Shown: piece after piece, positions 15,729 through 30,173 of the stretch
Position numbering within the stretch: the first letter of the stretch is position 1
How the letters are laid out: each line of letters opens with the position of its first letter
DNA from: Prescottella defluvii
Lineage (GTDB): Bacteria > Actinomycetota > Actinomycetes > Mycobacteriales > Mycobacteriaceae
Reading direction: 5' to 3'
DNA: 64,000 nt
Assembly (NCBI RefSeq): GCF_000738775.1
Contig: NZ_JPOC01000029.1
Span: forward strand, 62,001-126,000
Translations under genes and position numbers: made by a program
The notes under the pieces: generated by a model
Databases searched by the model: none
Seen by the model: the letters and a program-made list of their open reading frames with translations, nothing else
What the model was told of the DNA's origin: nothing

Positions 15729-17120
15729 CTACTGCCGGGTAACTTTTCCCGCCTCGACGTCGGCGGACTTCGCCGCGACCCATCGCCGGTAGGCCAGGGT
15801 GAGCATGCCCAGCCACACCCCGCCGACCACGAGGGCCAGCCTGGTATCGGCGTCGAAAGCCAGCACGACGACCACGAAGAGCAGGAACGCGATGGCCACC
15901 AACTGCCCGTACGGCCAGAACGGCACCGGGAACTTCAGCGCCGCGGTCTCCTCCGGCGTCATCTGCTTCCGCGAGCGGTACTGCGCAAACAGGATCATCA
16001 ACCAGACGAAGATGGTGGCGAAGGTCGCAATCGACGCGATGACGAGGAACACCCGATCCGGGATCAGGTAGTTGAGCAACACCCCGACCAGCAGCGTCGC
16101 GATCATGATGACCACCGTCATCCACGGGACCCCGTTGCGGGACACCTGACGCATCACCGCGGGCGCCTGACCGCGCTGCGCCATGCCGTACATCATCCGG
16201 CCGGCGCCGAAGATGTCACTGTTGATCGCCGACAGCGCCGCGGTGATCACCACGACGTTCAGCACCGCGGCGGCCCCACCGATGCCGAGACTCTGGAAGA
16301 TCTCGACGAACGGGCTGCCCTCCGACCCGATCTCCGGCCACGGGGTGATCGCCATGATCACTGCCAGGGTCAGCACGTAGAACAGGATGATCCGGACGGG
16401 CACGGTGTTGATCGCCCGGGGCACCGTCCGTTCCGGGTCCTCCGCCTCGCCCGCCGTGACGCCGATGATCTCCGTGCCGCCGAAGGCGAACATCACGATC
16501 GCGAAGCAACCGATGAACCCGCCGAACCCGGTGGCGAAGAACCCGCCGTTGTCCCACAGGTTCGACACGCCCTCGCTGGTGTCGTGGAGCCCGAAGCCGA
16601 ACACCAGGACCGCGATACCGCCGGCGATCATCGCCACGATCGCGACGACCTTGACGATCGTGAACCAGAACTCCACCTCGCCGAAGACCTTGACGCTGAG
16701 CAGGTTGATCGCCCCGATGAAGAAGACCGCCGCCAGCACCCAGATCCACCGCGGCACGTCGGGAAACCAGAAGCCCATGTAGACGCCGAGGGCGGTCACG
16801 TCGGCCAGGCAGACGACGATCATCTCGAAGGTGTAGGTCCAGCCCGTCACGAAGCCGGCGAGCGGTCCCAGGTGCTTGCCGGCGTATTCGCCGAACGAAC
16901 CCGACACCGGGTTGCTCACCGCCATCTCGCCCAGCGCGCGGAGCACGATGTAGATCGCCGCGCCGCCGATGAGGTACGCCAACAGCACGGACGGTCCCGC
17001 CCGGTGGATGGCCTCCGAGGAGCCGTAGAACAGCCCGGTCCCGATCGCGGACCCGAGTGCGATGAAGCGGATGTGGCGCGCTGTGAGGCCGCGGGTCAGT
17101 GCCGCGGCGGTGTCTTTCAC
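15729..17120 (-). CDS. APC-family amino acid permease
   Basis: A 463-residue transporter with twelve hydrophobic segments. The first helix carries the substrate-binding unwound region [16 protein letters not shown] and the signature [16 protein letters not shown], both typical of the AAT group (ProY/AnsP/GabP relatives) that import neutral or aromatic amino acids by proton symport. A GTG at 17120 was chosen; AGAGAG lies 7 bases upstream, and the longer frame to 17504 runs through the divergent riboswitch region. It is divergent from metY, but I see no evidence that its substrate is methionine. Confidence 0.9.
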
Positions 17121-17323
17121 AATCGAACTCTCTGGAATCTGGGGGTAACGGCTGGGCGCAGCGTCGACCGAAAGACTACGTCTGTGGGCCGCGTCACCGG
17201 TCGTGCGATATGTCCGGCCCCGAATCCACGCCGATGTCGGGAGGAACTCGTCACATTCCCCCCGGCCCGTTTCTCCCCGCCCTCCTTCCAACTGCGCGGT
17301 CGATACCGCTACTATCGGCGGCA

Positions 17324-17454
17324 GGTCATGAGTGCCAGCGTCAAGCCCCGGCTCGCTGGTCGGCAACCCTCCATCCGCGGTGGGGTGCCCCGGGTGATGA
17401 CCAGGTTTCCCGGCGAGAGCCGGGTGACAAGCGCGGGTCCGCTGGGACGGACCC
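17324..17454 (+). ncRNA. SAM-IV riboswitch
   Basis: The leader contains the SAM-I/IV core: GGTCATGAGTGCCAGCG, CAAGCCCCGGC, CGGCAACCCTCC, then GCGGTGGGGTGCCCCGGGTGA and GACCAGG, in consensus order. The following hairpin (17435-17454, GGGTCCG/CGGACCC) fits the 3' helix of the actinobacterial SAM-IV class. It lies about 125 bp upstream of metY, the expected context: SAM binding should lower expression of methionine synthesis genes. A Cys-rich leader ORF and a second hairpin follow before metY. Confidence 0.9.
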
Positions 17455-17487
17455 ACTGACAGGGCCATGCCCCACCGGAGGTTTCTC

Positions 17488-17508
17488 ATGTGTTGTTGTC
17501 GCACTTAG
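17488..17508 (+). CDS. Poly-cysteine leader peptide (Met-Cys-Cys-Cys-Arg-Thr)
   Basis: A six-codon ORF, ATG TGT TGT TGT CGC ACT then TAG, preceded by a textbook Shine-Dalgarno GGAGG at 17477-17481 with six-base spacing. Three consecutive Cys codons and this placement, between the SAM-IV aptamer and metY, are what a cysteine-responsive attenuator would have. Similar poly-Cys upstream ORFs ahead of sulfur genes are known in mycobacteria. When charged tRNA-Cys is scarce the ribosome should stall here and change folding downstream. The function is inferred. Confidence 0.75.
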
Positions 17509-17520
17509 CTCAGTCATTCC

Positions 17521-17542
17521 GGCGCGCGGACGCCGCCGCGCC
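17521..17542 (+). promoter_or_regulatory. GC hairpin between leader ORF and metY, candidate attenuator
   Basis: Stem GGCGCG (17521-17526) with CGCGCC (17537-17542) starts 12 bases after the leader-ORF stop and ends 36 bases before the metY ATG. There is no U-run, so if it acts it may do so by hiding translation signals or through Rho. Confidence 0.4.
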
Positions 17543-17578
17543 GTCTCATCACCTCCCGAAACCTGGAGTAGACGACTC

Positions 17579-18892
17579 ATGACCGACATCACCGACGCCG
17601 CCACCGATCCGACGGCCGACTGGAGCTTCGAGACCAAGCAGGTCCATGCCGGCCAGTCGCCCGACGGCACCACCAATGCGCGCGCGTTGCCGATCTACCA
17701 GACCACCTCGTACACGTTCAACAACACCGATCACGCCGCCGCGCTGTTCGGGTTGGCCGAGCCGGGCAACATCTACACCCGCATCATGAACCCGACGCAG
17801 GACGCCGTCGAGCAGCGGATCGCCGCGCTCGAGGGTGGCGTCGCGGCGCTGCTGCTGTCGTCCGGCCAGGCCGCCGAGACGTTCGCGATCCTCAACCTCG
17901 CCGAGGCCGGGGATCACATCGTGTCGAGCCCGCGCCTGTACGGCGGCACGTACAACCTGTTCCACTACTCGCTGCGCAAGCTGGGCATCGAGGTCTCGTT
18001 CGTCGAGGATCCCGACGACATCGAGCAGTGGCGTGCCGCGATCCGCCCGAACACGAAGGCGTTCTACGGCGAGTCGATCTCCAACCCGCGCAACGACATC
18101 CTCGACATCCCGGGGATCTCGAAGGTCGCGCACGAGAACGGCATCCCGCTGATCGTCGACAACACGGTCGCGTCCCCGTACCTGATCCGTCCGTTCGAGC
18201 ACGGCGCCGACATCGTCGTCCACTCGGCCACCAAGTACCTCGGCGGCCACGGCACCGCGGTCGCCGGTGTCATCGTCGACAGTGGCAAGTTCGACTGGAC
18301 GCAGGGCCGCCACACCAACTTCACCACCGCCGACCCGAGCTACCACGGCGTCGTCTACGCCGATCTGGGCGCTCCGGCGTTCGCACTCAAGGCGCGGGTG
18401 CAGTTGCTGCGCGACCTGGGGTCGGCCATCTCGCCGTTCAACGCCTTCCTCATCGCGCAGGGCATCGAGACCTTGAGCCTGCGGATGGAGCGCCACGTCG
18501 CGAACGCGAAGGCCGTCGCCGAGTACCTCGAGGCCCGTCCGGAGGTCGCCTCGGTGGCGTACGCCGGGCTGCCGTCGTCGCCGTGGCACGAGCGTTCCAA
18601 GACGATCGCCCCGCGCGGCGCCGGCGCGATCGTCGCATTCGAACTGGCCGGCGGCGTCGACGCGGGCAAGAAGTTCGTCAATGCCCTGTCGCTGCACAGC
18701 CATGTCGCCAACATCGGTGACGTGCGCTCGCTGGTGATCCACCCGGCCTCCACCACGCACTCGCAGCTGAGCCCGGCGCAGCAGCTCGCGTCCGGCGTCA
18801 CCCCCGGCCTGGTCCGTCTCGCTGTCGGCATCGAAGGCATCGACGACATCCTCGCCGACCTCGATGCCGGGTTCGCGGCGGCCGCGTCTTGA
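17579..18892 (+). CDS. metY: O-acetylhomoserine sulfhydrylase
   Basis: A 437-residue PLP enzyme that makes homocysteine from O-acetylhomoserine and sulfide, feeding methionine synthesis directly with inorganic sulfur. The Cys/Met-metabolism fold is clear: [13 protein letters not shown] at the N-terminus, the N-x-Y-T-R-x-x-N-P-T motif in [21 protein letters not shown], and the PLP lysine in [12 protein letters not shown]. The ATG at 17579 has CTGGAG ten bases upstream. Its last codons overlap the TTG start of metX (TTGA), so the two consecutive steps are translated together under the riboswitch and leader ORF. Confidence 0.96.
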
Positions 18893-20028
18893 CCGTCAGC
18901 TCCGTTCGCAACGCCCGTCCGGCCGGATTCCCTCCGCCGGACGGGCGGTTGGGCAATGTCCACATCGGCTCGATCGAACTCGAGAGCGGTGCGGTGCTGC
19001 CCGACGTCACGCTGACCGTCCAGCGGTGGGGGGAACTGGCCCCCAACCGCGACAACGTGATCCTGGTCGAGCACGCGCTGACCGGCGATTCGCACGTCAC
19101 CGGGTCGGCGGACGACGAACACCCCTCCCCCGGCTGGTGGGACGGAATGATCGGCCCCGGTTCGCCGGTCGACACCGACGAGTGGTGTGTGATCGCCACC
19201 AACGTGCTCGGCGGCTGCCGCGGCACCACCGGTCCCGGTTCGCTCGCGGCCGACGGCGCGCCGTGGGGTTCACGGTTCCCCTCCATCTCCATCCGCGATC
19301 AGGTGACCGCGGAGGTCGCGCTCGCGGACCTGCTCGGCATCGAGCGCCTGGCATCCGTCGTCGGCGGGTCGATGGGTGGCATGCGCGCACTCGAATGGGT
19401 TGTCGGGTATCCCGACCGGGTCGATTCGGCGTTGGTCCTCGCGGTGGGCGCGCGGGCGACCGCCGACCAGATCGGTACCCAGACCACCCAGATCGCGGCC
19501 ATCGAAGCGGACCCCGACTGGCAGGGCGGGAACTACCACGGCACCGGGCGTGTGCCGACGACCGGTCTGCGGCTGGCCCGCCGGATCGCACACCTGACGT
19601 ACCGCACCGAAAGCGAACTGGATTCGCGTTTCGCGAACGACAGCCAGGGTGACGAGAACCCTTGGAACGGTGGACGTTACGCCGTTCAGAGCTATCTCGA
19701 ACACCAGGCCGACAAGCTGGTCGCCCGGTTCGACCCGAGCACCTACGTGCTGCTGACCGAGGCCATGAACCGGCACGACATCGGGCGCGGACGCGGCGGT
19801 GTCGCCGCGGCACTCGCGTCGACGGATGTCCCGGTGATCGTCGGCGGCGTCGACTCGGATCGGCTGTACCCGCTGCGGTTGCAGCAGGAACTCGCCGACG
19901 GCCTGCCCGGCAGCGACCGCCTGCGGGTCCTCGAGTCGAAGGACGGCCACGACGGCTTCCTCACCGAGGCCGACGCGGTGGCCGAATTGCTGAAGGAGAC
20001 GATGGAGTTGGCGCGCGCCGCGCGCTGA
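18889..20028 (+). CDS. metX: Homoserine O-acetyltransferase
   Basis: A 379-residue alpha/beta-hydrolase-fold enzyme that acetylates homoserine from acetyl-CoA, giving the substrate for MetY. The nucleophile Ser lies in [14 protein letters not shown]; the Asp-His pair is supplied near [10 protein letters not shown] and [23 protein letters not shown] and GGCRGTTGP mark the family. The start is a TTG overlapping the metY stop. Length matches mycobacterial MetA/MetX. An inverted repeat at 20051-20086 follows. Confidence 0.96.
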
Positions 20029-28532: not shown

Positions 28533-30173
28533 TCAGGAGATGCCGACAGCCGCGTTCACACGCCGCCCCGCATCCCACGTCTTGTAGCCGCCGTCGAGGT
28601 TGGCCGCGGGGCGGCCCAGCTGTCCGAGCAGGCGTGCCGCGGTGTGGCCGCGCTGGCCCACCTGGCAGTGCACGATCAGGTCACCGGCGGGCAGTTCGCC
28701 GACCCGGTCCCTGAGCTCGTCGAGCGGGACGTTGACGGCGCCGGGGATGGCGCCGGCCGCGAACTCGTCGGCGGTGCGGACGTCGACGAGCGACGCGCCA
28801 CCGGCGACCAGGGTATCGAGTTCGTGCCACTGGACGGTACGGGTGGAGTCGGTGCGCAGGTTGTCGGCGATGTAGCCGAGCATGTTCACCGGGTCCTTGG
28901 CCGAACCGAACTGTGGTGCGTAGGCCAGTTCCAGATCGGCCAGGTCCGACGCGGTCAGCCCACCGGCCATCGCGGTGGCGATGATGTCGATGCGCTTGTC
29001 CACGCCCTCGCCGCCCACGGCCTGGGCGCCGAGGATGGCGTCGGTCTCGGGATCGACGAGCAGCTTGATCGCCATCTGCTGCGCACCCGGGTAGTACCCG
29101 GCGTGCGACTGCGGATGGGTGTGAATCGCCTGGTAGGGACGACCCGCCGCGCGCAACCGCTTCTCGTTCCAGCCGGTCGCGGTGACGATCAGCCCGAACA
29201 CGCCGACGACTGCGGTGCCGGTGGACGACTTGGCGCGCACCGGGCGTCCGGCGATGACGTCGGCGACCAGCCGACCCTGCCGGTTGGCCGGGTTGGCGAG
29301 CGGAATCATCGCGACGCCGCCGCCGACCGCGTCCCGCTTCTCGACGGCGTCACCGACCGCGAAGATGTGCGGGACGGAGGTGCGCATCTGGTCGTCGACG
29401 ACGACGCCACCCCGCTCCCCCAGATCGGCACCGACCATCTTCGCCAGCGCGTTTTCGGGCCGGACGCCGATCGCCATGATGACGACGTCGGCCGGGACGG
29501 TGCGCCCGTCCGCCAGTTCGGCGGTGGCCCTGCCGATCGAGGTCAGCTGGGTGCCGAGCTCGAGCCGCACGCCGTTCTCGCGCATGCGGTCGGCGACCGG
29601 GGCCGCCATCTCGGGGTCGAGCGGGGCGAGGACCTGGTCGGCCAGTTCGACGACGGTGACGTCGAGATTGCGGTGACGCAGGTTCTCGGCCAGTTCGACG
29701 CCGATGAAGCCGGCGCCGACGATGACGGCGCTGCGGGCAGACGACATCTGCGACACGAGCCGGTCGACGTCCTCGACGTCACGCAGGATCAGGGCACGCT
29801 CGACGCCGGGCAGCGGCGGCACGATGGGGCTCGCGCCGGTGCTCAGGACCAGTTCGTCGTAGCTTTCGACGTAGGTGTCGCCGGACTCGAGGTTGCGCAC
29901 GGTCACGGTGCGGGCGTCGGCGTCGATCGCGGCGACCTCGCTGCGGACGCGGACGTCGAGCCGGAACCGGGCGCCGAGGCTCTCCGGCGTCTGCAGCAGC
30001 AGTTCGTCGCGGTCCTCGATGACACCACCGGCGTAGTAGGGCAGACCGCAGTTCGCGAACGAGACGTGCGCGCCGCGCTCGAACACGATGATCTCCGCGG
30101 ACTCGTCCAGACGACGCATGCGGGTGGCCGCGGACATTCCTCCGGCGACGCCTCCGACGATGACAACCTTCAC
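28533..30173 (-). CDS. CoA-disulfide/NAD(P)H polysulfide reductase fused to rhodanese
   Basis: A 546-residue flavoprotein of the CoADR-RHD type. An N-terminal FAD fold (VVIVGGVAGGMSAATRMRR) is followed by SFANCGLPYY, whose Cys42 is the single redox Cys of CoA-disulfide reductases. Then come the NAD(P) fold AVIVGAGFIGVELAENL, the ATG-like GDAVE FAD motif and a dimerisation domain. The last ~90 residues are a rhodanese with Cys503 in VHCQVGQRG. Such enzymes reduce CoA-persulfide or polysulfide to sulfide. GTG start at 30173 with GAGGAGG six bases upstream. Divergent in function from respiratory Npsr only by context. Confidence 0.93.
   Translation of the reverse strand: MKVVIVGGVAGGMSAATRMRRLDESAEIIVFERGAHVSFANCGLPYYAGGVIEDRDELLLQTPESLGARFRLDVRVRSEVAAIDADARTVTVRNLESGDTYVESYDELVLSTGASPIVPPLPGVERALILRDVEDVDRLVSQMSSARSAVIVGAGFIGVELAENLRHRNLDVTVVELADQVLAPLDPEMAAPVADRMRENGVRLELGTQLTSIGRATAELADGRTVPADVVIMAIGVRPENALAKMVGADLGERGGVVVDDQMRTSVPHIFAVGDAVEKRDAVGGGVAMIPLANPANRQGRLVADVIAGRPVRAKSSTGTAVVGVFGLIVTATGWNEKRLRAAGRPYQAIHTHPQSHAGYYPGAQQMAIKLLVDPETDAILGAQAVGGEGVDKRIDIIATAMAGGLTASDLADLELAYAPQFGSAKDPVNMLGYIADNLRTDSTRTVQWHELDTLVAGGASLVDVRTADEFAAGAIPGAVNVPLDELRDRVGELPAGDLIVHCQVGQRGHTAARLLGQLGRPAANLDGGYKTWDAGRRVNAAVGIS

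Follow-up and report, generated by a model that had tools for sequence, protein, structure and literature searches.

The leader of metY-metX in the window, which is the whole stretch of 64,000 nucleotides analyzed, raises the question of whether a SAM-sensing RNA and a cysteine-sensing ORF both act on one methionine-pathway gene, and of how the two would be connected. MetY takes sulfide directly, which puts it at the point of competition for reduced sulfur between cysteine and methionine synthesis. The parts of the locus were as follows:

17324..17439, + strand: SAM-IV riboswitch aptamer (RF00634, model positions 1-116 of 116, 121.6 bits, E 4.9e-22)
17435..17454, + strand: post-aptamer hairpin GGGTCCG/CGGACCC, overlapping the aptamer 3' end; its 3' arm is a candidate anti-Shine-Dalgarno (anti-SD)
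17477..17481, + strand: Shine-Dalgarno (SD) GGAGG of the leader ORF, spaced 6 nt from the ATG and invariant in the 14 rows compared
17488..17508, + strand: leader ORF MCCCRT (ATG TGT TGT TGT CGC ACT TAG), with a Cys ORF at the same place in 14/14 genomes of the genus
17509..17564, + strand: C-rich, G-poor spacer (C 0.46, G 0.23), a possible Rho loading region
about 17520-17543, + strand: GC hairpin within the spacer (predicted fold)
17565..17568, + strand: metY SD GGAG, with a predicted local CTCC/GGAG hairpin
17579..18892, + strand: metY, O-acetylhomoserine sulfhydrylase (NF005872, 863 bits, cut-off 703)
18889..20028, + strand: metX, homoserine O-acetyltransferase (NF047917, 603 bits, cut-off 475)

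The initial annotation had placed a SAM-IV aptamer ahead of metY-metX, and 17324-17439 matched the sequence and structure of RF00634 over its full length at 121.6 bits, the gathering score being 38 bits; SAM binding is predicted on this basis. The six-codon Cys ORF with GGAGG at the right spacing, also proposed there, was found again at 17488-17508, with a gap of 6 nt from the SD. The MetY of the window was 93% identical to that of P. agglutinans, and the genome is of Prescottella type. Elsewhere in the window, RF02819 (Vibrio RNA AS7) matched barely over threshold (90.5 vs. 90) at 29986-30154, inside a long minus-strand ORF, and is probably a coding-sequence artefact.

A six-codon ORF in one genome is weak evidence by itself and might have arisen by chance, without function. 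Of 121 genomes searched for SAM-IV within the same GTDB family, 117 had a match; the loci taken were the best matches, and 163 SAM-IV loci were read among the matches listed, with weaker SAM-IV loci lying outside. Once two loci with identical leaders (L184, L186) had been removed, the metY set, drawn from the matches listed, consisted of 65 non-identical loci whose MetY was more than 55% identical to that of the window. The 96 remaining SAM-IV loci were the control set, its "other genes" being taken without gene-by-gene identification. Five loci (L108, L149, L214, L240 and L241) were retained although they failed a simple string check.

A short Cys ORF was present between aptamer and metY in 44 of the 65 loci among the matches listed. 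Of these, 43 came from a filter that took, among SD-led ORFs no longer than 40 amino acids, the one richest in Cys, and the remaining one (L218; MMCCCR, with GGGGG in place of GGAGG) was found without the filter. A separate search within the genus gave a SAM-IV match in 14/14 genomes, all with the Cys ORF, which had three Cys in nine genomes (MCCCxx or MMCCCRR) and two in five (MCSCxx, MCCSxx). Among the matches listed, the 21 loci without a Cys ORF comprised all loci of g4 (6/6), g9 (4/4) and g10 (5/5), the single loci of g7 and g12, and 4/6 in g28. Related ORFs share descent, and these counts are therefore not independent.

When Cys was disregarded in choosing the ORF (SD-led, 3-12 amino acids, at most 130 nt from the aptamer; Cys counted in codons 2-7), an ORF was found in 42 of the 65 metY loci, with at least one Cys in 41 and at least two in 33, and in 0/96 SAM-IV loci on other genes, both among the matches listed. 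Among SAM-IV loci the ORF was thus specific to metY. In 200 shuffles of single bases over the 180 nt after the aptamer, loci with at least two Cys averaged 0.01/65 (maximum 1/65), against 33 real ones. Set against these counts and against 14/14 in the genus, a chance ORF without function is very improbable. The arrangement of a SAM-IV aptamer and an SD-led Cys ORF ahead of metY-metX is confirmed as real.

The pattern GGAGG-N3-10-ATG-TGY-TGY had 2 matches in the 5.13 Mb of the genome, and its reverse had 0; the second match (MCCDCEERP) lay upstream of an ORF that by eye resembled an aldehyde dehydrogenase. The looser pattern RTGTGY-N0-9-TGYTGYTGY was not enriched in the same genome, because its 7 matches compared with 5 in the reversed control, and a known-looking Cys motif, TGYATHTGYGGNTGYWSN, had 0 matches there.

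The initial annotation had pointed to Rhodococcus, Nocardia and Gordonia as the place to look for conserved Cys codons. Eighty named MetY loci were drawn separately, and the SAM-IV core was detected in them by fuzzy match; the Cys ORF was carried by 22/22 SAM-IV-core loci labelled Rhodococcus, Prescottella, Nocardia, Aldersonia or Antrihabitans. The expectation failed for Gordonia, whose one named leader had the aptamer alone, as did one named Williamsia leader. A short run of Cys codons before a sulfur-assimilation gene, conserved in relatives, is what characterizes poly-Cys leader ORFs, and it was found here.

Across the order, SAM-IV matched in 105/150 genomes, and 27 of these loci were inspected (L253-L279), 4 of them from the same family. 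In another family, three loci had SAM-IV, Cys ORF and metY together (L259 MSRRMCCCRS, L267 MCQEMCSR and L268 MSCRMCCRH). In a third family, metY directly followed the aptamer in two loci; most other inspected loci had no metY downstream. Two members of the family (L264, L271) had no ORF under a filter of 12 amino acids and a strong SD, and longer Cys frames ending in RCCCR and CRC were seen by eye. Degenerate-looking or Cys-poor stretches followed the aptamer in four Mycobacterium-type loci (L139, L023, L051 and L059; by eye), which suggests that the Cys ORF has decayed in some mycobacteria.

SAM-IV also occurred ahead of other genes. A second aptamer of the same genome (L002, contig C45; 113.7 bits) preceded a gene resembling, by eye, a class-V aminotransferase or cysteine desulfurase, with no short SD-led ORF after it; a SAM-IV aptamer before the cysteine desulfurase SLIV_26975 is recorded for S. 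lividans. A weaker match over the cut-off (L003, contig C38; 71 bits) preceded an ORF resembling a von-Willebrand-type domain (by eye), an odd target. At nine loci (L153, L160, L180, L211, L213, L214, L233, L240 and L241) SAM-IV stood before a second sulfhydrylase-like gene, whose product shares 32-34% identity with MetY; a rhodanese-like ORF lay in between in most (by eye), and no short SD-led ORF was found at any of the nine. Three genomes of another family (G200, G226 and G153) had 11, 9 and 8 SAM-IV matches, respectively.

The peptides differed from one another (MCCCRT, MCSCHE, MCCSPP, MSRCR, MCRDC, MRCRHC, MCRTCR, MCMCP) and yet kept the SD, the start and at least one Cys. Among the matches listed, 39/43 ORFs were 5-8 amino acids long, and seven had a single Cys (MSRCR in six loci, MCRSPR in one); a single Cys codon is thin for a ribosome stall. 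Cys was encoded by TGT rather than TGC in the 32 distinct ORFs among the matches listed (66:14), and in the opposite proportion in 31 long ORFs of the window (15:103), a set chosen for G or C in third positions and thereby itself favouring TGC. G or C ended 67/115 of the non-Cys codons of the leader ORFs among the matches listed, and relaxed codon use therefore explains part of the TGT bias, which is more extreme.

This bias could stem from a constraint on the RNA, and the TGT run might accordingly be an RNA motif, or encode a metal- or thiol-sensing nascent peptide, rather than sense cysteine supply. A copper-responsive regulatory uORF has been described elsewhere, and it uses Cys. Across MSRCR, MCRDC, MCRTCR and MCMCP, however, the peptide varied without a fixed metal motif, and what was kept was the SD, the start, Cys and an early stop; two of the four predicted pairs of the TGT run were broken in two congeners each, with 0 double-sided changes. 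A role of this kind is improbable, though less so than a chance ORF.

The position of the ORF bears on how the two sensors would be connected. Among the matches listed, the ORF started 46-50 nt after the aptamer in 30/43 loci (48 nt in the window). Where no ORF was called, it was metY that started 43-67 nt after the aptamer (19/22), and where an ORF was present metY started at least 111 nt after it (37/40), in both cases among the matches listed and with metY starts called by script, of which two were wrong (L116, 53 nt; L097, 16 nt), one was doubtful (L114) and three were missing (L107, L113, L145). By this comparison, the ORF occupies the metY initiation place of its ORF-less relatives.

The post-aptamer hairpin was predicted in most slots listed. 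In ORF-less loci, its 3' arm paired more strongly with the SD region than swapped arms did (n = 27, 0/3000 permutations, which ignore that related loci share arms; some of the 10 named loci added had misplaced start codons, a source of noise), in keeping with a translational expression platform. Where the ORF was present, pairing of the 3' arm with the ORF SD was not locus-specific (n = 24, p = 0.93), nor did the arm prefer the metY SD (n = 29; cognate -7.5, shuffled -8.6 kcal/mol). The 3' arm as an anti-SD at the ORF was therefore left unsupported by the swap test, its support being confined to ORF-less loci.

The initial annotation had described two sensors in series. That part stands, since both lie upstream of metY-metX and the Cys codons and the SD are conserved; what the description overlooks is the location of the ORF at the place where metY starts in ORF-less relatives, a location that points to a nested arrangement. 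The initiation site regulated by the riboswitch in those relatives appears to belong to the ORF here, and the Cys ORF may accordingly be the first target of riboswitch control. Position argues for such control, and the pairing data add nothing to it. SAM-IV would then gate translation of the cysteine-sensing mini-ORF, and not of the gene, as a nested AND gate in which cysteine is read only at low SAM; this is proposed tentatively, at somewhat less than an even chance.

Alternatively, the two could be independent sensors in tandem, SAM-IV acting on the transcript or on metY and the poly-Cys ORF acting separately downstream, with the order of inputs as the only difference. Cys ORFs were seen by eye without a detected SAM-IV core in some metY leaders (L010, MCICGCSGR; L081, beginning MCMPC), and 21/65 SAM-IV/metY loci among the matches listed had no ORF, so that each part can occur alone. 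The absence of a locus-specific anti-SD arm at the ORF slots agrees with independence too. Against it, the start found at the place of the metY start of ORF-less relatives is that of the ORF and not that of metY, and in loci with the ORF the 3' arm did not favour the metY SD. Independent tandem action is possible but rather unlikely.

As to the step between ORF and metY, a trp-type transcription attenuator was rejected, as no terminator hairpin with a U-tract was predicted between them; a simple consensus scan of 17120-17620 gave 0 terminator-like sites. The GC hairpin that the initial annotation had drawn there was present at about 17520-17543, but it was not a terminator, and in 14 congeners 0/25 predicted pairs changed on both sides, so it was discarded as a covarying element. 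The fold of 17510-17570 had z = -1.9, with 10/200 shuffles folding equally well or better. The local CTCC/GGAG pairs at the metY SD likewise had no double changes in the 14 congeners. Pairing between the ORF SD and the region of the metY SD had seemed promising on inspection within the genus (AGGTTC/GAACCT) but failed as a locus-specific element, because cognate regions were not more complementary than swapped ones (41 loci, p = 0.32). A leaderless transcript beginning at the ORF, of the type described by Canestrari, was not indicated by the sequence, the ORF lying 48 nt after the aptamer with a GGAGG of its own.

Folding of the leader with and without a ribosome on the Cys codons, as the initial annotation had proposed, gave a mixed outcome. 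Mean predicted openness of the metY SD was 0.45 with a ribosome on the Cys codons and 0.41 in the free leader (p = 0.03), a small gain in the model, and it was much the same with a ribosome on the stop codon (0.46, p = 0.69). A stall-specific fold was thus unsupported, since masking the Cys codons opened the metY SD no more than masking the stop codon did.

The spacer between ORF and metY was rich in C and poor in G, with a mean composition across loci of C 0.45 and G 0.23. Its C/G ratio was 2.1 (n = 39, one outlier at 8.5), against 1.46 in metY coding sequence (n = 39) and 1.05 between aptamer and SD in ORF-less loci (n = 21). The median distance from ORF stop to metY SD was 61 nt (39 loci); two loci with too short a spacer (L208, L232) and two without a usable metY start were left out of these statistics. 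Such a composition, taken by itself, would suit Rho. A translational route is equally open, because a 2026 paper (PMC13236596), citing Canestrari 2020, describes translation attenuation as the control acting on the cysteine biosynthetic genes in M. smegmatis.

The direction of the cysteine effect could be the opposite, a stalled ribosome blocking metY and thereby leaving sulfide for cysteine synthesis when cysteine is short. The extended ORF overlaps metY as ATGA in three loci (L016, L020 and L208), where the cysteine effect could be reversed; coupling may therefore differ by lineage, and the sequence leaves the sign of the effect unfixed. Cys codons at positions 2-4 would place the ribosome over the SD of the ORF itself, and the absence of stall-specific opening in the fold computation is also in line with a block. 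On the other side, cysteine-responsive attenuation is reported for the poly-Cys leaders found before mycobacterial cysteine genes, and most loci are without overlap coupling, given the median spacer of 61 nt. A cysteine checkpoint of this polarity is unlikely, and a low cysteine supply is likelier to turn metY on than off.

The reading preferred, at slightly better than an even chance and whichever the order of inputs, is a two-input leader in which low cysteine turns metY on. Because a SAM-sensing RNA is followed by a conserved Cys-rich ORF, one gene probably reads both the end product and the cysteine supply. The SAM-IV aptamer would be an OFF switch, with SAM as the OFF signal, and translation would take place on the six-codon ORF, whose codons 2-4 are all the rare UGU. 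When Cys-tRNA is scarce, ribosomes would dwell on the UGU codons and expression of metY downstream would be favoured, perhaps because the dwelling ribosome holds the leader RNA open or denies Rho access to the C-rich spacer. With plentiful Cys-tRNA, translation of the ORF would run to its end, the ribosome would leave, and metY would be damped. In the order preferred, the riboswitch would control ribosome loading on the ORF, and metY would be fully on only at low SAM together with low cysteine.

The initial annotation had stated that SAM-IV and actinobacterial poly-Cys ORFs are each known, and the accessible literature agrees. SAM-IV on metY is known, for example from Mycobacterium avium MAV_4315 (PMC3774663, as far as available), with the same aptamer class and target gene as here; the locus studied has in addition a Cys ORF between aptamer and gene, and the words "uORF" and "leader peptide" are absent from the main text of that paper. 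Poly-Cys leader ORFs of actinobacterial cysteine operons were described by Seliverstov 2005 (PMC1262725), in the part available, likewise as short ORFs with a Cys run near the stop, before a sulfur gene and without a clear terminator. The same part of PMC1262725 suggests Rho for the cysteine leaders and reports that the regions ahead of methionine operons have no RNA structure in common. Unlike those leaders, the ORF here is SD-led, lies inside a riboswitch leader and stands on a methionine-pathway gene; the poly-Cys ORFs of Canestrari 2020 are, by title, leaderless, whereas this one is SD-led.

A riboswitch leader with a regulatory ORF has actinobacterial parallels in M. tuberculosis, in B12/metE and ppe2 (PMC11260477) and in Mbox/pe20 with Rho (PMC12810186), and the ppe2 and Mbox switches are described in the accessible text as controlling the ORF. 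These cases differ in that no amino-acid-sensing codon run was found in the available parts of the two papers, in whose main text "cysteine" occurs 0 times. The Salmonella mgtA leader likewise joins a riboswitch, for Mg2+, with an amino-acid-sensing ORF, the proline-codon mgtL (PMC6460261, available part); it differs in its signals and phylum, and bases of mgtL belong to pairing that the riboswitch needs, whereas the ORF here follows the aptamer. Each part is therefore known, and no precedent for the combination of SAM-IV and Cys ORF, or for SAM and cysteine sensing in one leader, was found in the open-licence literature; a Cys ORF before metY may have been mentioned earlier.

An ORF of six codons is below the size usually reported by gene callers. 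If the leader reads both SAM and Cys-tRNA, it would explain how sulfur is split in Rhodococcus, Nocardia and some mycobacteria, and relatives that have the ORF, lack it or have one overlapping metY would be a natural experiment on a riboswitch combined with a stalled ribosome.
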